From positions 186,001 through 250,000 of the forward strand of contig JAGTXO010000048.1 of assembly GCA_019448385.1 (NCBI GenBank): a stretch of 64,000 nucleotides of DNA, written 5' to 3'. Source of the stretch: Diacronema lutheri (Eukaryota; Haptophyta; Pavlovophyceae; Pavlovales; Pavlovaceae). Made by a program: the position numbers and the translations under genes. Under the pieces are notes generated by a model. That model was given only the letters and a program-made list of their open reading frames with translations, did no database searches and was not told the DNA's origin. Of this stretch, positions 32,058 through 62,422 are shown one piece after another. How positions within the stretch are numbered: position 1 is the first letter of the stretch; every line of letters begins with the position of its first letter.

Positions 32058-32519
32058 AGTCTGGGGCCGTGATCGTCGTGATCGTCGTGATCGGTCGGCG
32101 CGGCGCGAAGTGAAGTATAGATGGTCAAGCCAAATCCGATCAGGGGCACGATCGCGCCCCGAGTGCAGCGCGGGCCGTTCGGAAGGACGTCCTTGTGAGG
32201 GAGCTCTTCGCGTTTGGCGAGCGGGGGAGCACGACGCGCAGCGTTGCTGCGGCGGCGTGCGGGCGGCGAGCAGCGGTCGGGCTGCTCGCGACGAGGCCGG
32301 AGCAGACGGCGCCGTGGCCGCCGGCGCAGGTGACGCGCGCCGACGAGCCGTAGCGAGCGTCCGTGATCCGCACGGCGGTTGGAGCGGGCCGGCTGGTGCG
32401 GCGCGCTCGGCCACGGGTGGCGGCGTGCACGGTCGTGCCGCGCGCGGCACGCGTCGCCAGCCGCGCGCGACCTGGGCAGAGCCCGCAAAGCGTCGACCGC
32501 TGCGCGGCTCGGCCGTGCG
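32058..32519. other. Spacer between the Patched gene and the Fanzor-encoding gene; candidate guide-RNA locus
   Basis: 462 bp between two convergent 3' ends. It contains three gtgatcgtc repeats (about 32070-32096), a GGGGC/GCCCC hairpin (32140-32157) and the 12-bp palindrome aaggacgtcctt (32184-32195). No convincing ORF. Because Fanzor/TnpB guide RNAs usually overlap the 3' end of the nuclease ORF, the minus-strand transcript here is the natural place to look for one; this is inference. Confidence 0.35.
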
Positions 32520-35500
32520 TCAACGCCGGCCGCGCTTCGGCCCGCGCGCGCTGCCGCCGCCGGCACTGGCGCTGGCAGCTCCGCGGGCGGGGGTGCGGGC
32601 GCGAGAGCCGCCGCCGCCACCGCCGCCGCGCCCGCCGCCGTCGTCGCCACCGCCGTCGCCGCCGCCGCCTCCCCCGCCGTCATCGTCGTCGTCGCCGCCG
32701 CCGCCTCCGTCGCCGTCGCCGTCGCCGTCGCCCTCGCCGCCGCCGCCGTCGCCGCTGCCATCGTCGTCGTCGTCGTCGTCGCCCTCGTCGTCGCCCTCGT
32801 CGTCGCCGTCGCACTCGTCGTCGCAGTCGTCGCCCTCGCCGTGCACCATGCGCTCCTCACGCTCCCACACCTCGCCGCGCGCCCACCAGGCGAGCACGAG
32901 GGCAAAGCGCTCAGGCGTCGACGTGGTGTCGCGCCCGGCCGCGTGCGCCGCCATGTCGTGCACGTCGTAGAAGATGTTGCGCGCGGCGTTGTAGTCGCGG
33001 TGCACGGGCTTCTTGCCGCCGTTGCACGCCGGGCAGATGACGAGCGCGTGCACCGTGCGCGTGCCGCCCTTTGCCACGGGCAGGCGCGGGTTCTGCGCGA
33101 GCTCCGCGCCGCAGCGCTGCAGCCTGCCGCCCTTGGCGAGCCGCGGCATCGAGCAGTGCATCGACGTGTACGGCTCGGGCACGAAGACGGCCGCGACGCC
33201 GCGCCGCCGCAGCTCGCGCAGCAGCCCCACCTGGAAGGCGGGCGGCGCGCCCTTGGGCTGCGCGCCCTTGTGGTCGCGCAGCCACTTGCCCACGCACACG
33301 AGCAGCCGGTCGCGCGTCACGCCGTCGACACAGTGCGCCGCGATGAGCGCCTCGGCGACGCGCGCCGCGTTGGACCGCCCGCCGCTGTCGCGCCGCCAGC
33401 GCTCCTTCCGGCGCGCCGGCGCGTCGTACACGTGCTCGGCGGCGCGCTCGCGCACCCGCGCGCTCTCGCGGTGGAAGGCGATGTATTTGCCCGCGTCGAG
33501 CACCTTGGCGCTGTGCGCCTCGCCAAGCCGCGCCTCGTCCGCCTCCACGCTGAACTCCTCGCCGCGCCCGTCCTTGCGCACGCGCCGCCGCGCCGCGTTG
33601 GTCTTGGCCGTCTCGCGCGCAAAGCCCGCGGCGCGCGCGCGCGCGCGCTGCGTGAACTGCCGCCAGACGGCCGCCCGCCCGACGTGCGCAGAGTAGGTGG
33701 TGATGTTGCCCATGTTCGGGTCGGCCGCGACGACGACCGCCGCCTCGACGTCGATCGCCCGCCGCAGCTCGGAGCCGAGCGCGACGGCGATGCGCCCGTC
33801 CGGCCGGCGCCAGCGGTGCAGGACGCCCGAGCCGCCGGCCGGCGCCTGCGCCTTCGGCACGAGGACGGTCCCGACGGCGTGCACGGCGACGCCATCTGTC
33901 ACCACCGACTTGACGGGCTGCCGGCCCGGGAGCGGCACGCGCGGCAGCGGCGCGAGGCCAACCCACGAGCGCCGCGCGTGCCACGGCAGATCGGCCGGCG
34001 GCCGCTCGCGCCCGGCGTAGTCGAAGACGCGGTTGGAGATGTCGAAGCGCGTCGCAAAGACCGCGTACCTGACGCGCACGTCCGACATCGGCGGGGTGTT
34101 GCCGTTTGTGCCTGTCCACTTGATCGGCTCGCCATCGTGGTCGCGCAGGTCCAGCGCCTTGAGCCGCGCGCGCAGCTCCTTGCGCTCGTCATCCGAAAGC
34201 GTCACCCAGATGGCGCTCGCGGCGAGGCGCACGTTGCGCGGCACCTGCGCGCAGCGCGCGGCGCGCGAGCGCGCGGGCGCGTGACCAACCTGGCCGCGGG
34301 GCGGCGCGCACGGCGGCGGCGCGCGCGCTTGGGCGCTCGGCGGCGGCAGCGGCAGCCACGCCTCGCGCGCACATTGTGCGTGCGCAGCGGCGCCACATTG
34401 TACCGCGGCGGCCGTCCGGTCAGCTGCGTGTGGATGTGCGCGAGCCGGCAGAGCAGCGCCTGCCCCTCGGCCACGTGCTGCAGGGTGCGGATCTGCACGA
34501 GGAAGTAGCGCGTCGTGTGCCGGTCGTAGTTCCACCTTTTCGTGGGCGTGCACTTGTAGTCGATCTTGTGGAGGACCATGTCGGGCAGGTGGCGGTCGAG
34601 CGCGGCGGGGCAGCCGACGCGCGCGCCCTCCACGTCGCCGCGCAGCAGCCGCTCGCACAGCTCGCGCACGCGCGCGTTTCGCTGCATCTCGGGCAGCGCG
34701 ACGAGCGCCTCGTCGCGCTCGACTGCCGCGCGGACGACGTCGCGGAGCAGCCCGTTCACGACGCGCGATGGATGCATCAGGCACGCGGTGGACACCTGCG
34801 TCGCCTCCGCCTCGAGGATCTCCGTGAGGCCCACCGCGCAGACGGGCTGGACGCCCTCGGCCATCTCGCCGACGGCGCGCGCCGTCGCCGCCTTGGTCTG
34901 CGCGGCGGCTTGCTCGGCGGGCTTGCCTCGGGGCGCTGCACCGTACGTGCTCTCGTCCTTGTGCCAGCCGATGGCCGAGAAGATCGCACGGACGGTTCCC
35001 TTGTCCATCGTGGTCGACGTGTGCACGCTGGTCGACGGGCCGCCCGACGCCGCGCCGACGGCCTGCGCGCTCGCCACCGCATCCTCGTCGCGCACCACCT
35101 TGTTGATGACGCGGTACGCCTGTGTCGTGAGCCTGTGCACGGCCGCCGCGATGCGCCGCAGCTCCTTCCGCGCACCGGGCTGCGCCGTCACCGCCTGCGG
35201 CCCCGCGTTGAGCGTCGAGCGCTTGACCACGAAGCCCGGGAGCACGCTGACGCGCGTGCGCGCCGTCGCGCCGCCGGCGGCGCGCGCGCTCGGCGCAGCG
35301 GGCTCGTCCACGCGCGCGCGCTCGACGCCGCGCGCGCGGGGAACGCTCGGCGCGCGCGCGCCCGCGGCGTCGCGCGCGCTCGCGGCGGCACCCGCCGCGG
35401 CGCGCTTGCCCGCGGCGCCCGACTCGCCGTGCGCGCGAAGCGGCGCCGACGCCAATGCCGACGCCGCGCCCGCGCCGCCGCTGCCGCTGCCCGATACGCC

Positions 35501-38500
35501 CGCGCGCCGCTTCTGCTCGTCGCGCGTCTTGCGGAACTGGGCGACGAGGTCGCTGCTCACGTTGGCCTCAGGCTCCCACGTGTCGGCGCTCTCGTCGTAG
35601 CCCCGCCACCTGATCCGGAACTGGAACGTCACCTTCTTGCCCGCCTTGCGGCGCTCGTCGACGACCGCCTCGACCTCGTACGTGCGCGCCTCCTCGTCGA
35701 CGCTCGCGCCCGCCGCGCTCGCGCCCGTGTCCGGCCACCCAGCGACCGTGCCGCCCAGCCTCTCGGCGGCCGCGCGCAGCTGCCGCTCGCGCTGGGCGGC
35801 CGCGGCGCCTCGCGCGACCAGCGCGGGCAGCATGCCCGCGCCGCCCGCGAGGCCGTGCGCGCCGACGCTGGCGGTCATCAGCGCGTCGAGGCACGCGAAC
35901 GTTGCGAGCGCACGCGCGCCATCGTCGCCGCCGCGCGGCTGCGAGCGCACGACGGGCGATGGCCGCGGCTCCCCCTCGGCCGCGAGCAGCGGCCAGATCG
36001 CACTGGCCAGCGCGACGGCATGCGCGCCGACCGCGACGGCCACGTCCGCGTCGAGCGGCGCAAAGTCGTAGCGCACGAGCGCGGCCGGGCGCGAGTCGTC
36101 CGTCGGCCGGTCGGCGACGAGCAGCCCGACCGGGCGCGGCGGCTCGCCGGACGGCGCGGCGACGGGCACGCAGAGGAGCACGACGAGCAGGCGCGGCGTG
36201 CCGCCGAGCAGCGCGCGCGCGGCATCCGCCCCGTCGGCTCCGCCGCGCGCGGCCGCGGCGAGCAGCTCGGCCGCGCGCGTCGGGCCCAGCGCCGTGCGCG
36301 CGTCCTTGCGCGCGCGTGCGCGGGCCGTGTACGCGGCGCAGGCGTCGTCGAGCACCGCCGCGCTGGGCGCGGTGCCAGTCGTCGCCCACGCGCGCAGCGC
36401 GTCGCGCACCCGCGTGACGATCGCCTGGTCGACCGCCGCCTCGCCGGCAGCGTGCGCCGGCGCGCACGCCGGCGGTGCGGCGGCAGGCGCGAGCGCGGGC
36501 GCGCCGTCGGCGCCGTCAACGCCGACGGCGCCGTCGGCGCGCCGCCACGCGAGCTTCGCCTCGATCTGCTGCCGGACGGCGTGGCAGTGCCGGTCGATGC
36601 CGCGCGCGTCGTCGAGCGCGGCCAGCGCGTCCTCAGCGGCGGGACGGCCGCTCGCGTCCGCGACGGCCTGCAGGCAGAGCAGCGCGGCCGCACGCGCGTT
36701 GCACGCGCTCTGCGGCTCGGGCGCGAGCGCGAGCTCGAGCTCGAGCGGCGACGCGCCTCGCGCCGCGGCGATCGCGTCCATCAGCACGTCCAACCGCTGC
36801 ACCAGCGCCCTGTGCGCGTCGCGCGGCGCGCCCGTCGACGGCGCGCGCGAGCGCGTCGCCAGGAGCCCGAGCGCGCGCGCCGGCGCGCCCGCCGGCGTGT
36901 GCAGCACGAGCAGCGCCGCGCCCGCCAAGCTCGCGTTGCGCGTGACGAGCGCGAAGATGCGCGTCGCCTCGTGCGCGCCCACCGACGCCCAGATCGCAGC
37001 GCGATCGGCGTCCGTCTGCGCGTCGCACAGGTCGCGCACGTCGTCCGGCGCGAGCAGCGCGCCGCCGCCGGCGGAGCGCGCGACGATCGCCCGCGCCTCC
37101 GCCACGAAGACGGCCTGCGGCAGGTCGGCGTGGCGCGCGTCGACGATGGCGCGCGTCGCGTGCACGCCGAGCTCCACGCCGCGGTAGAAGGCGCGCGCGT
37201 TGGCCGCGCGCGCGTGCGCCGGCCGTCCGTCCGCGTTGCGCCTCGCGCGCGCCTGCTTGCTCGTGCGCGCGAGGCCGTCGCGTGGCGGTGGCGGCAGCGT
37301 GGCGAGGAAGCGCGCGGCGGGCGGCGGCGCGCGCACGCCGCGCTGCCGCCGTGCGATGGCCGCGAGCCGCCGGCCCGCCGCGCTGCCGCCCGCGCCGACG
37401 TGCTGCCGGCGGCCGAGCGCCGCCGGTGGCGGCGGCGGCGGCGGCGCGGCGGCGGGCGGCGGCGCGACGGCGGGCGGCGGCGCGGCGGCGGGCGGCGGCG
37501 CGGCGGTGGGCGGCGGCGCGGCGGCGGGCGGCAGCGGCGGCGGCGCGGCGGCGACGGCAGCACCAGTCGGCTTGTCCGCCCACGCACCCGAGACGCTGTC
37601 CCAGGCCTTGCCCGGTGGCGCGCGCCCACGCGGCCGCGGGTGGCGGGCTCGAGCGGCGGGGGGCGGGCGGCCGGCGCGCCAGTCGAAGACAGGTGCAACC
37701 GTGGCGGCAGGCGCCGAGTGCAGCGCGTCGGTCACAGAGCGCGTGGTGCGCGCGGCGACCGTGGCGCGCATGGCGGGCGGGCGGTGAGCAGCGCCCGCCG
37801 GCGCGCCGGCGGGCGCGGCAGCCGGCGCGCCGGCGGGCGCGGCCGCCTCGAGCCCGGCGGAGGCGCCGCGCTTGCGCTTGCGCGTGCCGCCGCGCGTGCG
37901 CCTGCGCGCGCGCCCGCCGCGCGCCCGTGCGGCCTGCGCGTCGCCAGCCGCGTCGCCGGCCGCGTCGCCGCGCCGCACGTAGACGATCGCGAACGCCTCC
38001 TCGCCGGTCCCGTCGACGCCGCCGCGCGCGCGGCGTAGGACCGACCGCCACTGCAGCCGCCGCGCGCGGCCGGGCTCGCACGCAAACCAGCGCCCACCGC
38101 GCCTGACGACGGCCACAAAGTCGTCGTCGCGCCGCCCGCGCCGGCGCGTGCGCAGCAGCACGCACTGCACGTCGAGCCAGCCCTCGTGCCAGTCGGCCGT
38201 GCTGGGGGCGACGCGAATCGACTGCGGGAGCTCGACGCCAAAGCCGGCGAGGCGCACGATGTGCGCGACGATGACGCTCGAAATGGCGGGGGCGCTCGAC
38301 GGGTCGTCCGCTGCAGCGAGCACCGCCTCGCCCCAGTGCTCACGCGTGACGCAATCCGCGTCCTCGACGTGCACGTGCGCCACGCTCGCGCCGAGCTGGT
38401 GCAGCAACGCGCAGATGTCGGCGTCGACCGTCCTCTCCTCCTCGGCCGCCTCGGCCGTGCCGCGGGCGGCGGCGTCGCCCGCCGGCTGCCCGAGGTACGC

Positions 38501-41500
38501 GATCGCCCGCTCGACGGCCGCGCCCTCCGCACGCGCTGCGCTGTCGATCGCCGCATTGCCGACGGGCGCGCGCAGCGCCGCGATCGCGTCTTGCAACGCC
38601 GTCGCGTCGCCCGTCGCCGCCGCCGCCGTCACCGCCGCCGCGCTCGCGGTGCCGTGCGCGACGGCGTGCAGCGCGGCGGCGCGCGCGGCGGGGATGCGCC
38701 CGTCCAGCGCGAGCACGAGCGGCGGCCCGGCCGGCGTCTGCTGCCGCCGGTGCCGCCGGCTCGCAGCCGGGTGGTCGGCGCGCGCGCGCTCGAGCCGCGC
38801 GCGCCGCTCGACGACGCGCGCCCAGAAGGCCTGCACCCTCGGCTGCGCGAATGCAAGCCAGCCGGCGCCGCGCGTCACGACGTGCACGACGATCCGGTCC
38901 TCGTGCCTGAGGTACTGCACGTAGAGCGCTTTGCTCACGCCGAGGACGTGCATGCCGAGCTGCAGCTGATCGCGGTGCGGCTGCGGCGGCCCGTCCTCGT
39001 GCGCCGTGGCGCCCGCCTTGGTGAGCGTCTTCACCTCGACGAGGACCTGCTCGTTGTTTTCGGGGAGGATGGCGAGCCCGTCCGGCGAGAAGGCGAACGG
39101 CGCGCTCTTGTCGTGCGGGTCCGCACGCACCATCGGCAGGTTGCACACGACGGTGATGCCGTACGCGGCCGCCAGCTTGCGCAGCGCGACGGCCTCGCCG
39201 AGGATGCCCGCGGTCGTCGCCTTGGTCCGCACCTCGCGCCGCCGCCGGTGCACGTACTCGTCGGTGAGCGTCTCGTGCGCGACGCCGGCGTTGTCGTTCA
39301 CGACGTCGCCAACCTTGCTGCCCGTGACCTCCTCCCATCGCTCGTCGTGCCAGCGCGGGCTGCGCTGCGCGGGCGCGCCCGCGCCGACGGCGTCGAGCAC
39401 GCGGCGCAGCGCTGTGCCGTCGGGCGCAGCAGGCACGCGCGCGCGGTCCTGGGCCTCGCGAGCGTCGAGGACGCAGCCCGTAGTGGAATGTTGGGGTAGG
39501 TCGAGCTTGCTCGCCTCGCCGTAGCGGCTCTCCAGCTGGCGCGGTGCGTCGGCAGGGCCGCCGTCCGTGCGCGCACCCGACGCGCCCGCCAGTGCACGGG
39601 GCGCAGCGTCCGAGGCGCCCGCCGCGCCCGCGCCGCCGCCAATCGCGCCAGCGCACGCGCGCGCCGCGACCTGCGGACGGCCAGCCGCAGGGACCTCGTC
39701 CGCTCGGCCGGCCGCTGCGTCGGCCGTCCGCTTGGCCACCTCGCGCACGTCTCCGAGCGCGAGCGTGGCTGGCGCCGTCCAGCTCCCGTTGCGTTTGTCC
39801 CAAAATTTGAGCAGCCCGCCAAGGAAGGGCGTGCCCGTCGGGCGGTCCTCGGGCACCTCCGCCAGGATCGCGTCGACGCGCAGCGCGGCCGCCACATCGC
39901 AGAACGCGCGCGCGGCGCGCGCCATCCGCTCGGCGCGCGCGCCGCCGTCGTCCGCCGCGCGGCGGATGGCGTGGCTCACGTGCGCGACGCGGAGCGAGAC
40001 GACGGCGTGCGCCGGCGCGTCGGCGCCCGTGCCGAGCGTGTGCCGCCGGATGGCCAGCTGCCCATCGCCCATGCGCGGCGGCAGCGACGCGCACGCCGCG
40101 ACGGTCGTCGTGCCGGCCGCGCTGTCGCACAGCCAGCTCGCCTCGCCGCCGCCCGCAAACTCAAAGGTCGCGAAGCCCTCGCGGCCGAAAAGCGCGACGA
40201 AGTGGTCGAGCACCGCCTTGTTGATCGCGCGCGCCGCCGGCCGCGTCGATGCGCCGCGGGCAGCGCCACCCGCCGCGCCGCGCGCATCGCTGCACGTCGC
40301 AGGGCAGGTGCAGCCGGACGCGCGCACGCCGTCCGACCGCGTCCGCGGCAGCTCGAGCTCGCGCACCTTGGGGCAGAACCAGAGCGGGTTGGACGCCTCG
40401 AGGCACAGCACGACGAGCCGCCCGTCCGTGCCGGCCAGCGCGCGCGCGTCGCGCAGCAGCTCGACGGCGAGCTCGGACGTCGCCGCGTGCACCGCCGGCT
40501 CGCCCGTCGCGCGGTCGGGCGGGAAGAGGCCGCCGCCGACGAGCGGGCTGGGGCAGCGGCCGAGCATTACGAGCAGCGGCGGCGGCGGCGTCTGCGGCGC
40601 CTGCTGCCCGACCGCAGCCGCCGTCAGCCCGGCCAGGTCGGAGCTCGTGCGGAGGGCCTTGAGCGCGACGCGCGAGCCGGTGCCCGCCTGCTCGGAAAAC
40701 GTGGCGAGCATGGCGCACGTGCTCGCCCTCGCGCCGCACTGCCAGCTGACGCGCGCGAGGAGGCCTTCCAGCGTGTCGTTTTCGCGCGGCCGCGTGACCG
40801 CGTCGAGCGCCGCCGGGCCGAGCTGGAGGCTGCCGGGCGTGACGCACAGCACCGCCTCGTGGTAGGCGCGCAGCAGCTCCCTCGGCAGCTGCTCGGCGGG
40901 CGTCGCCGCCTGCTCGCCCACCCACCGTACACCGTGGCCGCCGTCGCCCGCGCCCGCGAGCCGGACCGCCGGCCCGCCCGTGATCGCCGAGGTCGGTGGC
41001 GTGCCGAGCGCGTCGACGAGCGCGCGCACGGGCGCGACACGCCTGCGCGCAGCGTCCGCGCCGACGGCGAGCGCGGCGATCTGAGCGCCCTCCCATGCGC
41101 GCTCCCTCGCGTCGTCCCGCGCGGCCGCCGGCGCGGCGCCCGGCCGCGCGCCGGGCGGCACCGCGCACGCCGCCGCGACGACCTCCGCGCGCGCGCCGGC
41201 GGCGTCGGGCGCGTGCAGCTGCGCGAGCGCGCCAAAGAGCGCGGCGGCCGAGCGGTAGCGGCCGTGCGCCGCGACGAGCGCGTAGAGCACGCGCAGCGCG
41301 GCCACGCCCGCCTGGTCGGGCGCGTCGCCAGCGATGCGCCCGACCTCCCACGTGCGCGTGGGCGGCGGGCTGCCGTCGGCCGGGTCCGGACGCAGCGCCC
41401 ACGCGCGCTCGACGATCGCGTTGAACACGTCGCGCGCGGCGCCCTCGTCAAACTCGGCGGCGCCCGCCGCGTGCGCGCACCACCCGTGCACGCGCGACGT

Positions 41501-43061
41501 GGGCGCATCCACGGCGCGCTGCACGACGAGCACCGCCGGCCGGTCGACGCAGCCGAGGCTCACCGCCGCGTGCTTGCCCTCGAGCAGCGCCGCCGCCGCA
41601 GCCTCGACCAAGGCGTCACCAGGCGCGTCGCCGACGACGACGGCACAGCCGTCGCCGTACTCGGCCTGCATCGCGGCGACGCACGACGCGACAAAGTCGC
41701 CGCCCGCGGCCGCCGCGTGTCGCGCCGCCAGCATCCGGCGCGCGATGGCAAGCCAGACGTACTCGGCCGGCGCGCGCGCGGCGCGCGCGCGAGGCGCGCC
41801 GGCCGCGCCGCGTGCGCCAGCGCGTGCGCCTCCAGCGGCCGCAACGGCCGAGGCGGCTGGAGCGGCGGTGAGCGTGCGCCGCGCGCGCTTCGCCGGCCGC
41901 GCGATGGGCGATGCACCCGCCGTCGCACCGCCCGCAGCAGCCGGTGCGGCCGCCACAGCGCCCGCCGCGACGCCACTCGTCACGACGCCCGTGGCGGGCG
42001 GCGCGGCGTCGGACGCGGCCGCCTCGACGGGCGTCGCGCAACTACCGCCAGCGGTCGCGGACGCGCCCGGCGACGCGTCGGCGAGGAGGTGGCGCAGCAC
42101 GCCGCGCGCGAGCGCGACTCGCACGGCGAGCGTCAGCGCGCGCAGGCGGTCGGAAGGCGAGGCGTCGCGCTCGGCGTCGGCGGACGTGGCGGCAGCAGGC
42201 GGGGCGGCGGGCGGCGCGGCGGCGGACTGGGCGGCCGCCGGCGCAACCTCGTCGGCCTTGGCCAGCCAGACGAGCCCGGCGACTGCGAGCACGACGCTGT
42301 ACGCGCCGACATCGTCACCCGCAACGCGCGCCAGCCGGGCGTGGGCGTCGGCCTCGGACACGGCGACGCGGAAGAGCACGTCGTCGCGGGCAGCTTGCTC
42401 GGCAAACTGACGCAGCTGCTTGGCCATCGTCACGCCGGCGACGCACGCCTCGCCCGCCTCTGCCTCGACCTGCTCGTCCTGGCCGATGGCGGACGCGCCG
42501 GCCTCGGCGCCACCGTCGAGTGTCCGGCGGCGCTCGAGGGCAAAGCCACGCACACAGACGCTCTGGAGGCCGCCGAGCGCGCCCGCCTTCTCGTGCAGCG
42601 CGCACGACAGCTCGACCACCGAGTCCACGCGCGTCGCGGCGGCGCCCCCCCGCTCGCCGCGCGTGGGCGCGCGCACGACGAACACCGTGAATTGCGCGCG
42701 CTTCGCCGCGCGCGCCGACGCGCACGCGTGCTTCAGGAGCCGGCAAAGCGCGGGCCTTTGCGCCGCTGCGCCCCGCGTGCACAGCAGCAGTTGGCCGCGC
42801 TCGTCGCCCAGCTCCTGCTCGATGGCGGCCTCGAGCGCGTCGTCCGTCAAATCGCCGTGCTCCGTCGAGGCGAGCGCGCGCGCAGCCGCGAGCGCCAGCT
42901 CGCCTGCGCCCGCGCGCCGCCGGCGGCGCGCACCGGCGGGCGCGTGCGGCGCCGACGCGTGTGACGACGCCGCCGCGTCCGCGCGCGCACACGCGGCGCG
43001 CAACGCCTCACGCGCCGAGGCGGCCGCGCGCGCCCTGGGCGCGAGCCTCAAGAACGTGCGC

Positions 43062-43151
<90 letters not shown>

Positions 43152-46100
43152 TCGCCCGCGTCGCCGGCCGGCGGCGGCGGTGGCGGCGGTGACGGCGCGG
43201 CCACGGCGGCGGCAGCAGCGGCGGCGGCGGCGGTGGCGGCGGCGGCGGCGCCCAGCGCGGGCGGCGGCGGCGTGGCGGCGGCGGTGGCGGCGGCGGTGAC
43301 GCCAGCGGCGGCCTTGGCGACGCGCGTCTGCGGCGGCGCTTCGGCGCGATCGGGGCTGCCCCCGCCACGCACCGCGCTCGTGCCCGCGCAGACGCCGCCC
43401 GGCGCACGATCGCTGGCCGCGCCGGTCAGCGCGACGCGGAGGCGCTCGCCGACAGCGTACATGTCCGCCACGCTGAACGTGCGCGGCGCGGACGAGCAGC
43501 CCGCCGCGGCGAGCGCGTCGTTGAGCGCGCCCACTATCGCGAGGCCGCACGTCGCGCCACGCTGCGCCGCCTCGTCGAGCAGCCGCGCGCGGCGCACGCG
43601 CGAAATGTCGAGACCCGCCGCGTGCAGCGTGGCAGTTATCGCCGTGGCGAGCACGAGCGCCCGCCTGCAGGGCGACGCGAGCGTGTCGACGAGCACCGCG
43701 TCGTAGCGACGCTCGCCCGCGCGCGCGACGCGCACAAGGCGCAACGCGGTGAAATGGCCGGAGGCGAGCTGCGCGCCGTCGTCACCGCCCGCGCCGCCGC
43801 GCTCGTCCGACGGGCTCCACACGCCGATGACAGCCTGCGTCGTCGCCTCGCTGCGCAGGCGGTGCAGCAGCGCGGCGCGCTCGGCGCCGTCCTGGAACAC
43901 CGCGGGTTGCGCGGCGAGCGGCACGTGGCAGACATGCCCGCCGCCGGCCTGCCCGTGCACGCGTAGCACGACCTCGCAGCACGCGTCGACGGTTGAGGCG
44001 AGCATGTCGCCGCTGGCGATGCGCTCCACCTCTGCCTGCGGGAGGCCGGCGCTCGCGGCGGCGGAGGCCAGCCGGCGCGCAGCCGCGTCGCCCGCCCACG
44101 CAAGCAGCGCCGAGTTGGCGGGTTGGAGGGGAAGCTCAAGGGCGGCTGGTTCGGTGGCGGTAGCCTCGTTGGCAACGGGCACGTTGGCGGTGCGCACGTT
44201 GGCGGCGGGCGCGGCGGCGATGGCTGGTGGGGCGGAGGACACGCCCGCGGCGGCAGGCGCGGACGCGACAGCGGCAGCGGCTAGCGGGGCGGGGAAAACG
44301 CCGTCGGTGGCTGGCGCGGAGGCGAGTGCAGGAGCAACTAGTGGGGCGGGAAAATCGGCGGCAGGCGCGAAGGCGGATGCAGCAGCGGCTAGTGCGGCGG
44401 GGAAAACACCGTCGGCGGCAGGCGCGAAGGCGGATGCAGGAGCGCCCAGCGGGGCGCAGAAAACACCGTCGGCGGCAGGCGCGAAGGCGACAGCAGCAGT
44501 GGCCAGTGGAGCGGAGGCGCAGGGCCACGCGCGCGCCAGCCGTGCAAGCCCAAGCCGCGCGCGAGCGACGCACGCGCCGATGGCCGAGGCGGCGGCGCAG
44601 GCCACGACGTGGCCTGGCACCGGTGTGGCCAGCCGCTCGCGGGTGTGCACGTCGAGCCGCGCCCCACGCCAAGAGCGGCGGCGCGCTGAACGGAGGCGCG
44701 CGACCCCGATCGATCCGCCCGCGCACGCGCGCGCCGGCTCAGTGTGGCCAACGCGCGCCGCTATGCAAGGCGCGCGCGCGATAACGGCGGCTGTCGGCCG
44801 TGGCGTGCGCGTGGCGGCGCCGCGGCGACGGGCGCGGCACACGAGCCGCTCGGGCGCGCCGCCGCCGCGCGGCACGATGTCGAGCAGCACGGTCACGCCG
44901 CGCGCGCGCGCGACCGCCGTGCACGCGAGCCGCACGGGCAGCGGCGGCCCGTCCGGGCGCGCGAGCGCCGCCACCTCGGCGTCGGTGAGGCTGTGCAGCT
45001 CGCGGCGCGCGCGCGCGAACGCGGCGATGTCCGCGCGCAGCTCCGCGTCCGTGCCGAGCGCGGCACGCGCGTGCACGGGGAGCGACGCGCGCAGCGCGTG
45101 GAGCACGCCGCCGCGCGCGCCGCGCGGCGCCGGCGCGCGCTCGCGCTCAGCGCGCGCGGCGCGCGTGAGCTCGCGCACCGCGCGCGCGAGATTGCGCCGC
45201 GCGGCCGCGACGGGAGGGCTAGGTGCGCGCGCGCGCCGGTTGTAGCGCGGCCGCGCCGAGTCGAGGGGCGGCGGACGCGGTGCGTACGCCGCGGCGCGGC
45301 CCGCGCGCCAAAAGGCCGGCGGCGGGCGCAGCTCCGTCGCGTCGACCGCGGCCGCGAGCGCGCCGAGCGCGGCGTCGCTGTCGCCCGCCGCGTCGGCCGC
45401 GTCGACGAGCACGAAGAGCGCGCCGAGCGCGCGCGACGCGGCCGCCTGCGCGGCGGTGGGGCGGGCGCAGGCAGCGACGCATGCGGCCGCCATGCCGCGC
45501 GCCGCGGCGAACGCCGGTGACGTGACGGCCGCGCCGATGGCAACGGCGGCGGCGGCGACGGTCGAGGCGGCAGCGCCGGCGATGGAGGTGGCAGCGGCGG
45601 CGGCGCTTGCCATCGCGCGGCGCGCGAGACGCGAGGCGCCACCGACCGCCGCCGCCGCAGCGCGCGCTGCGCGCGCGCCGGTGGCGCGCATCGTCGCCGC
45701 GCCAGGCGCCGCCGCGCCGACGCCGCCGGCGCCCGCGCCGTCGCCGCTCTCGGCCGTGCAGGGCTCCGATGGCGAACCCGGCGTGCGCTGGCGCGTGATG
45801 CGCGCGCCGAGGCGCGCGCTCCGCGCCGCGCGGCCGGCGACGTCGAGGAAGCGCCGTGCGCGCGCCGCGCGCAGGCCACGCGCGCGCGGCGGCGCACCGA
45901 CAGGCGCCGAGCGCCGCGGCGCGCACGCCGGCGCGTCGCTGTCGGGTTGCGCAGCGCGCGCGCGGGAACTCGGCGCGGCGTGTGCGGGCGGCGGGCGCGC
46001 GCCCGCGCGGCGCAGAGGCGCGAGGCGCCGGCCGCAGACGAGGCGTGTGCGCAACCAGGACGGCGAGGGCCGCAGGGCGCCGTCGACGTCGCGCATCGGC

Positions 46101-49100
46101 GGGCCGCGAGCCCGCCGCGCAGCCGTGCGGCGCGCGCGAGGCGCTCGGCGGCGCGCGCGCCGCACGGCGCGCGCGGCGGCGCGCACGCCAGCGACGGCTG
46201 CGGCCACGCCGCGCGCCAACACGGCCGCGGCGTGCGCCATCGCACCGAGCACGGCGCGTGGCGCGCCGAGCAAGCGCAGCAAGCGCGACGCCGTCGCGCG
46301 CGCCGGCGCACCGTGTGCAGGGGCCTCGCCAGCGCCAGCACCGACGCCGCCATCGCCGCAGCCGCAGGTGGCGTCGCCGCCGCCGCAGGCGTCGCGACGG
46401 ACGCCGCCGCCGCCGAAACAATCGCCGCACACGTCGCCGCCGACGTTGCCACCCCAGCCGCCGTTGCGTGCGCAGGTGGCTGCGGCGCGTGCGTGCGGGA
46501 GGCGTGCCGTGCGGCGCGCATCACACGGGCTGCGCGACGCGAGCGACGCCGCCGGGGTCCCCGCTGCGCCAGGCGCGCCGTGCGCGCCAGCCTCGCCGGC
46601 CTCGCCGGCGCGCGGTCGCGCGCTCGCCTCGACGTGGCCGCCTCCGCCGCCATCGCCGCCGTCGAACCGGGCGGCGGAGGGCTGCCGCTCGAACCGCTCG
46701 TCGGCGTCGGCCGCCACCGCCGCCTCGCGCTCCGCCGCCGCGGCGGCCGCACGGCGCGCGTGGCGGAGCGCGCGGCCGCCGTCCGCTGCGCGGCGTGGCG
46801 GCGCGGGCGCCGCCTTCGGCGCGCGCGGCCCCTCGGCGCGCTCGCGGAGCACGGCGAGCGGCGTGCCCGTGGCGACGCTCGTGCAGACGCGCCGCAAGGC
46901 GGCGCTTACGCACGCGTGGACGACGCGCGCCGTCCGCTTGTCGGCGGCGCGCGCGGCGCGGCGCGCGGCCTTGGCGGCGGCCTTTTTGGCGCGCCTCCGC
47001 TCCGCCTGCTCCGACAGCGCGCGCGCCTGGCGCTCGGCTGCGAGCGCGTCCTCGGGCGAAACGGTCGGCCTCGGCGGCCGCGCGCGCGCGCTGCGACGCT
47101 GCGCGCTGCGGCGGTCGGACGGCGGCTGCCGCGGCGGCGAGGACGGCGGGCGCGAGCTCGGCGTGGGCGACCAATCGCCGCTGACGGTTGCGAGCGGCGC
47201 AAACGGGTTGTCGTCCCCGCGCCCCGCGGCGTGCGACAGTGCACGCGGCGTCGGGCGCCGGCCGACCGCTGGCGGGCCCCACTCGGACGGCGGCTCCGAG
47301 GGCGAGCGCGCCGTCGGCGCCGCGCGTTGCGCGGCCGGCGGCGCCTCCCGGTCCAGCGCCGCCTGCTCTCTCGCCGCGGCCTGCTCGTCACCCTCCGGCA
47401 CGCCACGCGGCGCGAGCACCGCGGTGGCGCAGCGCGTCGCGTTGAGCAACGCCGCCTCCATCTGCCGCACGCTGGCCTTGGCGCACGCCACACCCTGTCT
47501 CGCCCGGCGCAGCGCCTCGTGCGCGCGGCGCACTTCCGCGTCGGCATCTTCGCGCATGCCAAAGTGCGCCTGTTGCAGCCGCAGGTCCGCAGGGCGCCCC
47601 TGCGCGCGAGGGGCACGGGCGCGGCGGCGCGCAGGTGACGGAGCTGGCGCGCCGTTCTGCGCTGCGCGCACGCCAATCGACGGGCGCGCGCGCGGCGGGG
47701 CGCGCGCGCGCGCGCGCGCGCGCGCTGCCTACCCAGCCGCCGGCCGGCTCGCGCGAGCGCGCCAGCTGCTCCGCCGCCTCGGCGTCGAGCACGCGCTGCT
47801 GCGCCTCCTCCTCGCCCAGTGCAGCGAGGTGCAGCCGGCGGGCTGCCTTGCGGCAGTTGCCCTCCGCCTTGCCCACGGCCTTGCGCGCCGCGTCGACGGG
47901 GTCGTCGTTGGCTCTGGCGCGCCTGCGCTTGCCCTTGTCGGCGGGCGGCGGCTCGGCGCGCTGCAGCGTGCCGAGCGCGTCGTCGGCTCCGCGCGCGGCC
48001 GCCCGCGGGCGGCGGGCCCCAAAAAGCGCACCGGTCGCCGTGCGCGCCGCGCAAGCAACGACCAGCGCTGACATGCCGGCGAAGACCGCACCGCCCAGCG
48101 CCACGGTTGCCACGATGCGCAGCGTCCCGTGCGCAAGCTGCGCTGCCTCCGCCGCTTTGGCGGCCTCGCGCGCGCGCGCATCGGCGGCTCTCATCTCGTG
48201 CAGCAGCCCGGCCGCGCCGCTCGCGCCGTCGCGGCCGCGCGCGAGCTCGCACAGCACCGCCGCCGCGCGCCGCGTGGGCTCGCGCGCGAGCAGCTGCGCG
48301 CCGCCGTCGGGGCGCAGCTTCTCAACGAACTCGACAAACGTCGCGTCGCGCCAGAGGGACATGCGGAAGGCCCTGTGCACCGCCCCCTCCTGCTCGCGCA
48401 TCCGCCGTGCCGCCCGCCTGCCGTCGCGCGCGTGCGCGTGCGCGGCCGCGTCGACTCCCGCGACGCCGCGCTGCGCGTCGCGCGCGGCCGACGACGGCGC
48501 CGCCGCGCTGCCCGCCAAGGGCGCCGCAGCGGCGACGCGCGCGTGCGGAGCGACGGGATCGCCGGCGGCCGGCGGCTCGGCGCGCTGCGGCGTGCCGTTT
48601 GCTCCGCGCGCGGCCGTCCCGGGGGAGGTGGCCGCGATGGCGCCGCCAGCCGCGCCGCGCGCCAGCCACGCGCATAGGCTGCCGACGAGCTCGCCGAGAC
48701 CCCCGACGGTCGCCGCGGCGGCGAGTGCGCCGGGCTTGCCGGCCGACAGCGGCTCGCGAGCGTCGTCGTCGCAGCCGCCGGCACCCGTCTTGGCGAGTGC
48801 GTCGCGCTCGCCCTCGACGCCCGCCACGACCGCCGCCCCTCCGTCGTCCGCCGCGCCGGCCGCGCGCGCGGCCGGGCGCAGAGGAGGCGTGCCGGTGCAG
48901 CCGTCGCCGCTCGTCTTCGCCGTTTCCTCCACTTTGGTCACTTCGTCGCCACCTGCGCCATCTCCGACGCCGGGGCCCTTGGTCACGCTTGCCGCCATGC
49001 GCGCCGTGCCCGCCGGCCAGCCCGCCGACTGCTCGAGCGCGGCGGCGAGCGGCGCGACGCGCGTCGACTCGGGCGCGCTCTCGTCATCGGGCTCGAGCGC

Positions 49101-51407
49101 GTTGTGCAGGCGCGCGAGCGCGCGCTCGACGGCCGCGGCGCCACTGCCGGGGGCGCGGCTCGCCGCGCGCACCGCGCGCCGCCAGGCCGGCGCGAACATG
49201 AGCGCCGGCTCGAGCGCCGCGAGCGCGCGCGCCTCGCGCGCGTCGCTCGCGCCGAGGCGCGGCGGCACGCGCGCGGCTCCGCGCGGCGCGGTGCCTCGGA
49301 AGCGTGGGCTCAGCGTGTAGGCGAGGTGCTGCGGCACGCCGCGCGCCTCCGCGCGCGCGCGTCCGTCCTCGACCTCGCGCCGCGCCTTCGCGATCGCCGG
49401 CGTGGCGCGCGCGAGCCAGTCGGGGTCGGCGGGCAGGTGGATCACGACGAGAATCGGCGCCCAGTCCAGCCGCGGGTTCTTGTGACGGTCGGGCACGACC
49501 CACACGAGCAGCACCGTGCCCTCCGCGCCGCACGCCGCCTCGTAGATCCTGGGCTGCGAGCGCCAATCGGGCCTGACGCGCAGCGCCCGCGCGTGGTCGA
49601 TGGCGGCGGCGCGGTCGCCATTGAAGTGAACCGTCGTCACCTCGCCGATGACGGACCGGCCGGACCGCCAGCAGAACACCGCGTCCGCCGACCCGCCGGC
49701 GATGGCCGCGAGCGATTCGGGCGCGGCGAGCCGCGGCAAGCCCTCGAAGGCGGCAAAGTCCTCGTGCGCATTGTACACGCCGCCCCAGCCGTCGTGCGCG
49801 TACGCGCGCGCGGCCGCTCGTACCGCGCGCGGCTGGTTCTCCACGCCCGACGTCATGTGCCATGTCGTCCCCGCGAAGCCGGGCTCGCCCAGCTCGGCCC
49901 GCACGACGGTACCGTACCCCGCGCCCTGCGTCGGGGCGGCGAGGTGGTGCATGCCCGCGCCGGTCACGCCCTCCGTGCGCTGCCGCGTGACGATCGTGCC
50001 CGTCGCGTGCGCGAAAAGCGTGTCGACCACGGCGGGCGCGCGCCCGCTGTTCGCCCGTGGCCGCGCCCTGCCCGCTTTTAGCTGCTCGGGGTCCTTGGCG
50101 TCGTACACGCGCGCGTCCGCGTCGCCCTCATCAGGCGCAGTGTAGACGCAGCGGCGTTCGAGCGGCGCCGAGCCACCGCCGTCCGCCGCCGCCGGCGAGG
50201 TTGGCGCCGCGCCCGCCGCCACCGCGCTCGTCGCCGCCGTGCCCGTCGCCACCGCCGCAGCCGCCGCGCCCGCGGGGTCGTCGTCCCCGTCCTCCGCGCC
50301 CTCCCCGTCGTCAGCGGTGGTGGCGTCGCCATCGTCCCCGTCGCCCTCGCCCCCGCCGAGGCTGCTGAATGGTCGGGGCCCCCACGCCGAGGCGGCGCGC
50401 CGCTGCGGCGCACGCGGCGGTGGCGCTCGCGACGGCGGCCTTGGCGCCGCCGCGCCGCGCGGCCTGGCCGCCGTCGACAGCGCGCGGCCTGCAGCGCCCG
50501 TGAGCGCGTCGAGCGCGGCCGTGCGTGCGATGCGGTCGTCGGGCGCGCGCAGCGCCGCCTCGACGGCCTGCAGCAGCCCGTCGGGCGCGGATCCGCCGAC
50601 ACTGGCATCGCACGCCTCGGCGAGCCGCGCGGCCTCGGCGAGCCGCGCGGCCTCGCGGGTGAACGGGCCGAAGCGCCTGGCGCGGTCGCCGAGCAGAGCG
50701 CCGATGGCGGCGCGGAGCGTGCGCGCGCGGGTCTCCTCGTACGCGGCCGTCGTGAGGCGCGCGAGGCGCGCGTCCAAAGCCTTCTTGATGTCGACAAGGA
50801 CACTCGCGCGGCGGCCGTAGAGCGTCGATGCGCTCGCCACGACCTCGGCCGCGACTGTTGCCGCGGCGAAGCAACACGCGGCCCCACTCTGCGGGGGCGC
50901 CTTGAAGGCATCGATGGGCGGCGCTGTTCTGCCGATGCGCTGCGCAAGCTTCTTGATGAGCACGCCGGCCGCCGTGGCGTACGCCGATTCGCCGTTGCCC
51001 AAGGTGCGCGAATCGGCGAGCAGGGCGAGCGCGGCGCCGGGCGGCGCGCCGCGCTGCGCGGGCGGCGCGAGGAGCAGGTACGCCGCCGTCCAGTGCACGA
51101 GGCCGCTGGACGCGCGGAGGCAGAGCGGTAGCACGACCACGAGCACCTGCCCAAACCGGTCCGCATCCGCGCATGCTTTGCGCAGGTTGCGCAGCGCCAC
51201 CTTGAGCGCATGCTGCGAGCACCCCGTGTCGCCCACCCTAACCCTGCTCGTGCCGAAATCCGCGTAACGCAGCAGGGCGATGAGGCAAGTGGATGGGACC
51301 ACGTGGGGGTGGGTATCTCCCGGCGACAGAATGGTGCTGAGGGCCAGCGAGAAACTGTCCGAGCCGCCCCGCCCGCCGGGCAAAGCGTCCTTCACGGAGT
51401 CCTCCAT
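32520..51407 (-). CDS. Giant multidomain protein: Ulp1-like protease, YqaJ-like nuclease, chromodomain and C-terminal Fanzor nuclease
   Basis: Minus-strand exons 51407..47733, 47599..34373 and 34244..32520 join with both introns in phase (GT-AG, 133 and 128 bp; junctions PAGGW|GRPADL and RTHN|VPRNV) to about 6,208 aa. Domains from the N terminus: Ulp1-like cysteine protease (His105, Asp132, Gln173, Cys178); coiled coil (AQQRVLDAEAAEQL); Ala/Arg-rich linker; second Ulp1-like module (about 43.5-44.1 kb); YqaJ-like PD-(D/E)XK exonuclease (38.8-39.3 kb); degenerate protease-like segments (35.8-37.2 kb); chromodomain (about 35.5-35.7 kb); Fanzor/TnpB nuclease to the end; and an acidic Asp/Gly tail. 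Function inferred: RNA-guided DNA cleavage by a mobile element, with chromatin targeting and proteolytic maturation. More in-frame introns, or separate genes, cannot be excluded because stops are rare in such GC-rich DNA. Exons upstream of 51407 are possible (ctgcag precedes the ATG). Confidence 0.7.
32880..35240 (-). other. Fanzor/TnpB-like RNA-guided nuclease domain
   Basis: The RuvC-like triad is complete: Asp in VAADPNMGN (codon 33720-33722), Glu in FVPEPYTSM (33174-33176) and Asp in HRDYNAARNI (32994-32996). A zinc-finger-like Cys set lies between Glu and the last Asp (MHCS, QRCG, CPAC). The Glu just before the T-S of the zinc region fits the rearranged RuvC-II position described for Fanzors. 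The helical N-terminal half (VHRLTTQAYRVINKVV ... YNVAPLRTHN) is encoded before the last intron. Known family role: RNA-guided double-strand DNA cleavage. Confidence 0.85.
35513..35700 (-). other. Chromodomain fused directly upstream of the Fanzor domain
   Basis: The sequence TYEVEAVVDER ... FRIRWRGYDESADTWEPEANV matches the chromodomain fold. The three cage aromatics expected to bind methyl-lysine are present (Tyr in TYEVE, Trp and Tyr in RWRGY). It lies about 90-100 residues before the Fanzor N-terminal helices, in the same frame. Chromodomains on mobile-element integrases steer insertion to heterochromatin; a similar role here is inference. Confidence 0.85.
38812..39324 (-). other. YqaJ/lambda-exonuclease-like PD-(D/E)XK nuclease domain
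   Basis: GILGEAVALRKLAAAYG gives the first helix. The catalytic Asp lies in FSPDGLAIL (codon 39080-39082). Glu and Lys lie in LVEVKTL (39035-39037 and 39029-39031), an ExK spaced 15 residues after the Asp. The closing helix is RDQLQLGMHVLGVSKALYVQY. The YqaJ family degrades one DNA strand from ends in viral and phage recombination. Confidence 0.8.
43058..43152. repeat. GGC trinucleotide repeat encoding poly-Ala
   Basis: About 30 GGC/GCC units, read as an alanine run on the minus strand of the giant gene, just downstream of the second protease module. Confidence 0.9.
43500..44110 (-). other. Second Ulp1-like protease module
   Basis: A helical lead (VERIASGDMLASTVDACCEV) is followed by ASGHFTALRL (His), DAVLVDTLASP (Asp) and AAQRGATCGLAIVGAL (Gln, Cys), in the order of a C48 peptidase. 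The usual Trp after the His is Phe. Activity plausible but unproven. Confidence 0.5.
44190..44515. repeat. Degenerate ~60-bp tandem repeat in the giant gene
   Basis: Four to five copies encode the peptide theme SAFAPAADGVFPAPLAAAA, with length and sequence drift between copies. It forms an Ala/Pro linker immediately before the second Ulp1-like module. Confidence 0.75.
50870..51407 (-). other. N-terminal Ulp1-like (C48) cysteine protease module
   Basis: Catalytic order H-W ... D-S ... Q-x4-C is visible: LVHWTAAYLLL (His105), LLADSRTL (Asp132), PPQSGAACCF (Gln173, Cys178 or Cys179). Spacing agrees with Ulp1/adenain-like proteases. Such domains process SUMO or viral/transposon polyproteins. Confidence 0.6.
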
Positions 51408-53311
51408 CTGCAGACTGTGGGCACGTCAGTGTCCGGATGGCGGCCCGGATGATACTCGGGAGAATTTACATGATGCCCTGGAGAATGCCCCGCTCTCCCA
51501 CAACCAGGACCCGCCAGCGCGCCGAGCCTACTCGTTTGCCCGCGCCGCCTCTCTTTGCGCGCCCGAGCGCGGCCTCCGAGCGCGGCCAACGTCCTCCGGG
51601 GGCGTGCATCGTGGCTGCTCGGAGGGGCTGCGACGCGGCGAAAGCTCGCTGCGCGGCCGCAACGTGAGCGCGCGCGCGCGGCCGCGCGCCGGCCTGCGCT
51701 GCTCTGCACGGCCGCGCGCCGGCCTGCGCAGCCTCGTCGCGCAGCGTGAGCGCGAGCGCGCGCGAGGTGAGCTCGGCGGATGGGTGCGCGGCGGCGTTGG
51801 CGGCGGGTGCGGCGGCAGGCTGGGCGGCGGGTTTGGACGGAGAGTGTCGGGGAAGAACGGGGCGCATCCTGGCTGGGAGTTGGACGGCGCCCACCACGCG
51901 CTGGCGGATCCTGGTTGCCACCACCACCCCCCCCCCCCCCCCCGGAGACGAGGACCAGGGGCATGGCCGACTCGCTGCGCCGCACAGCGCGCGGCGCGCG
52001 GCATGCTGCGCGACCTCAAGCACATCCAGCCGCGCTCCGCCCACGCAACGCGCGCAATGCCGCGTTGCACTGCAGGTGTGCACGTGCGGCTCTCACGCGC
52101 ACTGTGTTGCACGAACGGCATCACGCCACCGAGCTGCGTCCGGACCACGCGCCGCGCGCAGGCGACCACACAGGGGCGCGCCGCGCCGCGCGTGCGCGCC
52201 CTCGCAACCGTTGCAGCACGCTCTGCCTTGCACTGCGCCGAGCCGCCGCGCGCTGTGCGCGTGCATGCAGGGCGCACGCGTGCGACGAAGCGCGCGCGCG
52301 GCGAGGCGCGCGGGCGGCTCGCTGCGCGGGCGGCAACGCGCCCAGCTGCGCCCAGGCCAGGCGCGCGCCCGCGAGTGCCACCGGGACGCACTGCCCCCGC
52401 CGGGGTCGCCGCGCGCTCTGTGTGTGCGCTCGCGCGCTGCGAGCGCGGCGGAACGTTCGTGCATGGCGCGAAGAGCGCGGCACCCGAAGACGGCTGCCCC
52501 GAGCCCGCGCCGGGTGGCAGCGAGCGGCGGCACCTCCTCGGCGAGCCCGCCCCGCGCCTTCCCCTCCACGTGGCGTTTTGAGGCAGACGGACACGCGCCC
52601 ACACTGCGACTGGGCACGCTGCTCGAGGCAGACACGCACCCAACGCGCGCGCACCACGCGCCCGCGTCGGCGGGCCGGTGTGAACGAGCGAGAGCTCGGT
52701 GTCGCCAACGGGGGCACGGGCGCGACTTCGGTCCGCCTCTCGACGGACGCAGGCGACGCTGCCGGGAACTTCCCCGACGCCTGCACATCCAGGGCTTCGA
52801 GGTACAGAGCTGGGCAACAGTGCCGCTCGTCACCGATGAGGCGGCCAAGCTCGCTATCCTTGCTGCCCTCGGCTCCACCAAACAGCCGGGCGACCCAACG
52901 GTTCGTGATCGCCTGGCCGCCAGGTGCGAACCGCGCCCGTGCAAGCGCTTCACCCGCATTCTCCGCCCCGCTGCGGACGTCCGCCTGCCGGCCGCGAACA
53001 CGGCCGGTGCGCGTTGCCGCCTGGCCCAACACGAAAACCCGCCCGCCCCCGAGGCCGCAGGTCCTACCTGCCCAAGCGCAGCCCAACGGCACGCAGACAG
53101 CCCGCCTTGGCAACCGACTCGTGCGCGAGCGCTCCGCCCTCCACAAGAGCCTGCCCCACGCCACCGCCGACGCGGAGCCAGCGCAGCCGACGCCCCTCCG
53201 CGACGCTCGCGCCGCAAGGCGCAAGGGCCCCGGCGAGACGGCGTCAACCAAGCCCGCCGCTGGCACAGCGCCGGCACCCGGAGCCCACCCCAAGCCCCCG
53301 CGCACGCCTCG

Positions 53312-53347
<36 letters not shown>

Positions 53348-53858
53348 ATCGGCGGACCGATTGCGTTTTGGTGCGCCAGGCTCAATGCGCCATCGCAGTG
53401 GCGGGCCCGCAGACGCAGACGCTGACATGCCCAACGCTGGGCACTGAGGCCGCAGGCCGGCCCTCCTGGACCTGGCGGGCGAGCTGCCCGCGCAGCGGCC
53501 ACGCGAGCCTCGCACTGACCGTGGCGGTCGCTGCCACCGTGATAGCTGCGGGTGCGGCGGCCTTGGCCCCAACCCCATCATCCGTCTTCATCCCCGCCCT
53601 GCTCGCGCTCGCGGCCTACGTCGGCAATCCCTGCACCGGGATCCGCCCCGCGAAGTCCACACAAGACTTATCCGTGCTGCACGCCAGCCGCGCGCGCCGA
53701 CGCGCGCCGCTCCCACACGCTCACCTCCGTTTCCGCGGGCGGCCCAACGCCCCCCCCCCCCCCCCCCTCCCCCCCCCCCCCCCCCCGGCAGGCGGCCATC
53801 GAGCCGCATTAGCACACCCGCCCGGGGCCTCCCGCCGCACCCGCAGCGGCTCGGCGCC
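51408..53858. other. Accessory region without a supported gene
   Basis: GC-rich DNA open on both strands with long C runs (17 bp at 51927, 35 bp at 53312, and two runs around 53749-53786). A better-composed stretch near 52780-52960 reads on the plus strand as GFEVQSWATVPLVTDEAAKL and on the minus strand as FAPGGQAITNRWVARLFGG. Third-position GC in either reading is clearly lower than in neighbouring genes. I could not decide whether either is coding. Confidence 0.5.
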
Positions 53859-54160
53859 TTGAATCCTCCCGTCCCCCGGGGTGAGGCCTTCAACCCGGGC
53901 CCAGCGCGCTCCGACTGCCTCACGCGCGCCAGCGCCAACCTCGGCGGCATGGTAGACCCCGAGCGAAAAGCCGCACTTCTCGCCGTCCTCGTCAGGCGCA
54001 AGTACGTTATCCTGCTCCTACTGCCGACGCGGCTCCCGCGCGCGCGGACTACTACGCCGGGCAGATCGCCGCAGACGCACGTGAGTGCACACGTGCGGAC
54101 AAGGCGCACACGCTCGACGTCCAGTTAGCGCACGTGCACGTGCGCGCCACTGGTCACATT
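53859..54160 (+). pseudogene. Possible LINE-type endonuclease N-terminal remnant
   Basis: The plus-strand frame reads GEAFNPGPARSDCLTRASAN, continuing LGGMVDPERKAALLAVLVRRKYVILLL. This resembles the first strand, helix and second strand of AP-endonuclease-like LINE proteins (N-x-x-G..., then K/R-rich helix, then Y-x-I-x-L). A frame shift follows and no reverse transcriptase is seen. Low confidence; composition differs from host genes. Confidence 0.3.
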
Positions 54161-54333
54161 TGAGCGTCCGTGCTCGCCCACAGCGTCGCCATCCACAAGA
54201 TGCGCGCTGGAGCCATCCAAGCAGGGCTCTGCCTGCTCGGCTTCCGCAAGGCAATTTGGGCCGCGGACAGCGGACAGCGGACGGCGTGCGCGTGCGAGGT
54301 GCGAAAGGAGGAAGAAGGTAGGGAGAGTTGTGT

Positions 54334-54347
<14 letters not shown>

Positions 54348-54364
<17 letters not shown>

Positions 54365-54369: not shown

Positions 54370-54372
54370 CAC

Positions 54373-59699: not shown

Positions 59700-59704
59700 G
59701 GTCG

Positions 59705-62389: not shown

Positions 62390-62422
<33 letters not shown>

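Follow-up and report, generated by a model that had tools for sequence, protein, structure and literature searches.

The giant gene and its exons

The window analysed here, a stretch of 64,000 nucleotides (G000:C98:186001-250000), comes from the haptophyte Diacronema (Pavlova) lutheri, whose genome was analysed as 43,492,796 bp in 103 contigs. Its minus strand carries a giant gene with a predicted Fanzor-type RNA-guided nuclease at its C-terminal end, which the first-pass annotation of the sequence had described as a single protein. The gene is part of a multicopy 31-kb mobile element (Table 1), a context that the first-pass annotation had missed. Statements drawn from published papers refer to the parts of their texts available to us.

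Table 1. Features of the element in the window copy, by window position
Feature	Position	Strand	Basis or remark
Giant mobile element	32115..63141	- (main gene)	31,027 bp; copy borders
Exon 1 of giant gene	47733..51407	-	1,225 codons
Putative intron 1	47600..47732	-	133 nt, GT-AG
Exon 2 of giant gene	34373..47599	-	4,409 codons
Intron 2	34245..34372	-	128 nt, GT-AG; identical join in NCBI model KFE25_006464
Exon 3	32520..34244	-	Fanzor catalytic part and acidic Gly/Asp-rich tail
RecE/lambda-exonuclease-like (YqaJ) domain	38801..39376	-	profile matches
Chromodomain	35528..35680	-	PF00385, 3.9e-13
Likely Fanzor N-terminal part (exon 2 end)	34373..35257	-	position and spliced join; boundary by eye
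TnpB/Cas12f-like zinc domain with RD	32973..33212	-	PF07282
Protease-like H-D-Q-C arrangement 1	50850..51095	-	motif only, post hoc regular expression
Protease-like H-D-Q-C arrangement 2	43505..43756	-	motif only, post hoc regular expression
Noncoding 3' region, candidate guide-RNA scaffold	32115..32519	-	405 bp; inferred
Ubiquitin C-terminal hydrolase-like (USP type) open reading frame	54776..56272	-	PF00443, 4.3e-8
Pif1-type helicase, frame broken in window copy	57323..59699	-	PF05970, 1.8e-24; PF21530, 6.2e-13
Perfect palindrome near 5' terminus	63077..63094	.	18 bp; sequence
Near-palindrome near 3' terminus	32143..32160	.	18 bp; sequence
Long imperfect palindrome inside element	60272..61143	.	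89.6%; sequence

All three exon lengths are multiples of three, and phase-0 joining yields 6,208 residues with a single terminal stop, in agreement with the frame of about 6,200 residues first proposed from three minus-strand exons, the coordinates of which were right. Long open frames come cheaply by chance at high GC, and GC content in the window is 66-83% (2-kb bins). The central frame nevertheless runs to 4,508 amino acids, against a maximum of 1,497 in 100 dinucleotide-preserving shuffles of the same stretch, which rules out a chance origin. Third-position GC peaks in the three exon frames, at 0.90, 0.91 and 0.95. Copies elsewhere in the genome were located with slices of the exonuclease region (best 150 of 236 candidates scored) and of exon 1 (best 121 of 192). 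Around the exonuclease slice, the open frame spans at least 4,470 amino acids in 88 of the 150 scored copies, exceeds 5,000 in 8 and falls below 3,000 in 23. On contig C11 one frame of 6,136 amino acids is listed for both the exon-1 and the exon-2 slice; exons 1 and 2 may thus be read through without splicing in some copies.

Both introns had been proposed as phase-0 GT-AG introns, and their borders and phase proved right; independent support extends to intron 2 and not to intron 1, which we call putative on the basis of frame and GT-AG borders. For intron 2, the annotated D. lutheri model KFE25_006464 (P0013), which lies in another element copy, joins ...LRTHN to VPRNV... exactly as predicted. 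Since the annotation was made by BRAKER2 with RNA-seq (PMC8379373), this join is evidence-aided. The copy on contig C69 also keeps the GT...AG borders and the 128-nt length of the intron, with 125 of 128 bases identical. The model itself (G000:C69:1672449-1675608, L090) is a chimera in which the end of exon 2 and the start of exon 3 are spliced onto SAM-domain exons about 2.3 kb away; its apparent donor reads GGTGAG in the C69 copy and GGCGAG in the window. Furthermore, residues 3522-3946 of the giant protein have a 98.8% match in a Pavlova_lutheri record of EukProt (scaffold1219_cov502, P0012), a resource that we take to hold transcriptome data for Pavlova lutheri. From these frames and joins we infer that the gene encodes a single very large protein, possibly processed.

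Domains of the giant protein

The proposal that exonuclease, chromatin-reader and RNA-guided-nuclease domains share one frame is borne out by matches to phrog_434, PF00385 and PF07282. The strongest exonuclease match is to phrog_434, 'RecE-like recombination exonuclease' (6.2e-15); TIGR03033 (3e-5, 24.2 bits, cut-off 68.05) and PF09588 (4e-4, 21.1 bits, cut-off 22) both match below their cut-offs. The chromodomain scores 49.5 bits against a cut-off of 25.1, and its best PDB chain is the CDY-like chromodomain 2dnt_A (7e-10). PF07282 (Cas12f1-like TNB) matches exon 3 at 1.7e-6 with 28.5 bits, above its cut-off of 26.3, while NF040570 reaches 14 bits on the Fanzor part with a cut-off of 100. The likely N-terminal part of the Fanzor has no family match of its own in the Pfam scan, and no Pfam family reaches its cut-off in the remaining slices of the protein.

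Exon 3 contains the complete motif published for Fanzor and TnpB proteins, D-X(125,275)-[TS][TS]-X-X-C4-X(5,50)-RD (PMC3627910), in the form D175-x184-TSxxC...-x8-RD, with D175, T360-S361, C364/C378/C404/C407 and R416-D417 as the motif residues. The Fanzor part has a 99% match in an ENA record (P0004) and is 39-47% identical by BLASTP to four predicted proteins (P0005, P0006, P0007 and P0014). Two scans of viral contigs revealed no relatives. Against PDB sequences exon 3 gave no significant match (Cas12f1, E 0.31 by single sequence and 0.012 by profile).

The first-pass annotation had further assigned Ulp1-like protease domains to the protein, a claim that was not upheld. PF02902 (Ulp1/peptidase C48) has nine matches genome-wide at E<=1 and none in the window copy, and ten slices of the giant protein lack a C48 match in Pfam even at E<=10. 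Alignment of six candidate stretches left zero invariant columns, and repeated Ulp1 modules were rejected. Two protease-like H-D-Q-C arrangements occur in the protein; among 2,000 local shuffles, searched with the same regular expression written after the sequence had been seen, six contained one arrangement and none contained two. We treat these arrangements as a lead only. Because Ulp1 proteases are unconfirmed, proteolytic self-release of the Fanzor is speculation.

Fanzor1 elements share with the D. lutheri element the TnpB-type nuclease motif, the position of the Fanzor near one element end and a noncoding stretch between its stop codon and the terminus (Bao and Jurka 2013, PMC3627910; PMC10432273). 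They are described as single-frame elements of roughly 2.1 kb or as separate Fanzor genes within transposons (PMC3627910; PMC10432273), whereas the D. lutheri Fanzor forms the C-terminus of a giant frame that also encodes a chromodomain and a RecE-like exonuclease. The exonuclease shares its profile match with phage RecE and lambda exonuclease (YqaJ), but here it lies within the protein of a eukaryotic element, upstream of chromodomain and Fanzor. The words 'chromodomain', 'Ulp1' and 'YqaJ' do not occur in the main text of PMC3627910. More broadly, an exonuclease-chromodomain-Fanzor fusion is undescribed in the open-access literature searched, including PMC3627910, PMC10711439, PMC10432273, PMC6338049, PMC6431247 and PMC12477816, and within that literature the architecture is new, as first suggested.

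Copies, borders and insertion sites of the element

The element borders were defined by copies that part from the window at the same places. At the 3' end, 14 other copies (15 loci) diverge from the window at 32111-32118. At the 5' end, near 63141, 39 other long matches to the query 61200-64000 end at query base 1,846-1,955, 32 of them at 1,941-1,946 (best 40 of 644 candidates scored; seven further matches were short and weak). Genome-wide, with up to 2 mismatches, the terminus sequences match 223 times at the 3' and 228 times at the 5' end, and reversed controls match nowhere. Many copies with sharp borders rule out an isolated odd host gene.

Among the 3' ends listed, 58 of 97 could be matched to a 5' end listed for the same contig. 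The paired copies fall into size classes near 31.0, 29.2, 26.3 and 21.6 kb: 24 measure 30.96-31.08 kb, 7 measure 29.1-29.4 kb, 8 measure 26.0-26.9 kb and 12 measure 21.4-21.6 kb, and the remaining 7 range from 12.7 to 35.9 kb. One 26.3-kb copy (L028) has no match to window 55634-60642, the helicase stretch. Such discrete shorter classes point to derivatives mobilised in trans. By extrapolation from a mean of 27.7 kb and 150 to 223 copies (the scored exonuclease copies and the 3' ends, respectively, with 39 of the 97 listed ends unpaired), the family would occupy 4.2-6.2 Mb, or 9.6-14.2% of the assembly. The genome paper reports 22.9% of the genome as repetitive and names long terminal repeat elements and long interspersed nuclear elements (PMC8379373); a 31-kb repeat family is not named in the available part of its account of repeats. 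Scored copies are 98-100% identical at the protein level, and by this measure the element looks recently active. Two terminus variants, TATATACGG and TATATAGGG, occur at 5' ends and suggest two subfamilies. In the C69 copy exon 3 differs at 12 of 377 bases (L090).

An element terminus forms the start of contigs G000:C1, C5, C6, C10, C12, C83, C91 and C92, the end of C71 and base 2 of C32. Targeting of telomeres was considered and rejected: several contigs begin precisely at the 3' terminus, and telomere-like repeats are missing beyond it. These contig starts are better accounted for by assembly breaks, the repeat being longer than the sequencing read N50 of 23.458 kb (PMC8379373), and the element probably broke the assembly at these contig ends. 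The start of C9 (G000:C9:1-140, L088) consists of CCCCTA/CCCTA repeats and is likely a telomere. A tandem array at C70 was also rejected, the 1.4 kb past the 3' terminus of one copy having no element match.

Besides the giant gene, the element encodes a USP-like frame with Cys and His boxes, placed by eye at residues 240 and 448 of 498, and a Pif1-type helicase, which carries an N-terminal part of no assigned kind. Near the 5' end, plus strand 61423-63025 has a weak coding signal and no Pfam match. Pfam scans of the element frames returned no transposase, integrase, polymerase, capsid or reverse transcriptase profile.

The insertion sites were compared in 16 of 19 paired copies, after exclusion of C5:140862, C34:175755 and C9:1156474, for each of which one end was changed or could not be located. 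Element ends read 5'-(C)TATATA(C/G)GG...CCATCTATAC-3'; a C directly precedes TATATA at the 5' end in 12 of 16 pairs and directly follows CTATA at the 3' end in all 16. The ends form short, imperfect inverted repeats (TATATACGG / TATAGATGG) that agree at 7 of 9 positions. In 14 of the pairs the flanks share no exact repeat of at least 5 bp at offsets 0-5. C36:932378 has an off-set 5-bp flank match, and C9:2936713 provides the sole clear target duplication, 13 bp long (GCGAGGACTATAT). Across 832 combinations of repeat length and offset none stood out, the top one being 2 bp with an identity of 0.41 versus 0.22 in mismatched pairs.

A constant duplicated word could hide in the element ends, and unoccupied relatives of the sites were therefore compared. 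Related contiguous unoccupied sites were found for 3 of 11 pairs searched: C27:83734 (13 places, partial ones included), C5:258264 (1) and C5:715596 (2). One unoccupied relative was read per pair, and all three had a gap at the junction, with about 6-8, 8 and 7-9 bases, respectively, that are present only in the unoccupied site and are unlike the element ends. The sites compared are 78-93% identical as related repeats and do not represent alleles of one locus. Judged from these alignments, insertion seems to remove target bases instead of duplicating them. In 5 of the 16 pairs a flank recurs at other compared loci. The insertions at C4:9707, C4:1126356, C34:86221, C34:379023 and C36:932378 lie at or near the apparent end of another repeat family (...AAGCGYCGTTAGT), and a preference for such ends is possible.

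A model for the element and its alternatives

We read these data best as a new family of giant Fanzor-carrying transposons. The large frame would probably be the main gene of a DNA element that is maintained by a Fanzor cut and exonuclease-assisted copying back. One very large protein, possibly processed, would be made from the giant gene. Its Fanzor stop codon is separated from the 3' terminus by 405 bp, the expected place of a guide RNA. In Spizellomyces the guide RNA runs from the stop codon to the right end and then 14-15 nt into the variable flank (PMC10432273); by analogy, the D. lutheri guide would begin in the 3' region and extend a few bases into flanking DNA. Programmed in this way, the C-terminal Fanzor would cut the matching site where the sister or homologous chromosome lacks the element, much as the authors of the Spizellomyces study suggested that sister-chromosome cutting could aid propagation (PMC10432273). 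The fused RecE-like exonuclease would resect the cut ends, recombination would copy the element back, and the chromodomain may tether the complex to methylated chromatin. New insertions would be made by a separate enzyme, one with no match in the profile scans, and shorter classes would be mobilised in trans by full copies. Variant counts here and below are of distinct variants among the copies compared within the genome; the 3' 408 bp has one single-nucleotide polymorphism (SNP) and the 1,722 bp of exon 3 have 19, as raw counts uncorrected for depth.

Several observations weigh against this model. Guide RNA, cleavage, splicing and protein are predictions from the sequence. AlphaFold gave exon 3 a mean predicted local distance difference test score of only 43.9 (5-row alignment), leaving the Fanzor fold unconfirmed, and the RNA fold of the 3' region is not significant (z -1.13). 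No known transposase was recognised in Pfam and PHROG scans of the element frames, the latter covering two minus frames. The helicase frame shifts three times across 8, 10 and 11 nt (landmarks by eye); such distances leave no room for introns, so the frame is broken in the window copy. Exon SNPs comprise 39 synonymous and 104 non-synonymous changes, and this synonymous share of 27% is so near the 29.6% expected without selection that substitutions show no constraint in these young copies. All three distinct indels in exon 1 are 1 nt long and break the frame.

The neutral-looking substitutions and the broken exon-1 frames are also what would be expected if exon 2 and the Fanzor were separate products of the same element, exon 3 being expressed from a promoter or start of its own, with the long frame mainly a decaying GC-rich coding relic. 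The strongest of the alternatives, this is in our judgement still doubtful. It gains from the 23 scored copies with shortened frames and from the four Fanzor relatives, whose predicted sequences all start precisely where exon 3 does; exon 3 opens with GTG, however, so these starts may be gene-caller starts after an intron in those relatives. The spliced join in the annotated model of another copy also argues against it, as do the variants themselves: both distinct indels in exon 2 are multiples of three, compared with 7 of the 37 between 51.4 and 54.7 kb, and no SNP creates a stop in the exons, where 1.7% of changes would be expected to do so. Copying back of the kind we favour leaves insertion to another enzyme. 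A transposase-free spread, in which one giant protein cuts under RNA guidance, resects and reads chromatin as a eukaryotic insertion or homing element, would dispense with it; with its own Pif1-type helicase assisting, the element would be inserted at the break through either end joining or recombination-dependent copying. RNA-guided insertion would account for the unrecognised transposase, the lack of shared duplications and a target loss of about 6-9 bp, and the loss at the related empty sites strengthens this reading. Small target losses are also expected from other end-joining routes, and we hold the idea as a tentative, unlikely one.

The same loss weakens two further explanations. Insertion of Helitrons is precise, between two bases, and the bases missing at all three related empty sites are unlike such insertion. 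A Helitron-like rolling-circle transposon, with a Rep too diverged to detect and with Fanzor and exonuclease as passengers, would nonetheless fit the Pif1-type helicase, the lack of a shared target duplication and the palindromes near both ends. Fanzor1 has been described in a Chlamydomonas Helitron2, many copies of which have variable duplications of 7-19 bp (PMC3627910), which the single 13-bp duplication resembles. The element differs from Helitrons in its 31-kb size, its giant frame and ends that are not TC...CTRR; moreover, a simple scan gave no convincing HUH motif, and Helitron_like_N (PF14214) matches once in the genome (C63:35738-36019) and neither in the window copy nor in six-frame Pfam scans. 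We regard a Helitron origin as rather improbable. An ordinary DDE transposon enlarged by captured genes could explain the short inverted ends, and appears very improbable indeed: Pfam scans of the element frames contain no DDE domain, the 16 pairs share no fixed-length duplication, and a hidden TATA-type duplication is countered by the 6-9 other bases that stand in its place in all three of the related empty sites read.

Our preferred reading, a giant Fanzor-carrying transposon family, places the element beside Polinton/Maverick, Teratorn and the brown-algal KDZ elements, with which it shares size, many domains and high copy number; algal giant transposon families can exceed 30 kb (PMC12477816). 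It differs from these in the lack of a shared target duplication and in scans that show neither polymerase B nor capsid nor DDE domain; Pfam scans likewise returned none of the PolB, integrase and capsid genes of Polinton/Maverick elements.

The role of Fanzors for their carriers is still an open question (PMC10432273). With the nuclease joined in one frame to a chromatin reader and a recombination exonuclease, in an element of a culturable alga, the idea of 'cut and copy back' becomes directly testable. The fusion would also widen the range of Fanzor proteins in size and domain content, and, because it sits in a mobile element, the odd protein raises a question about the machinery of giant transposons.

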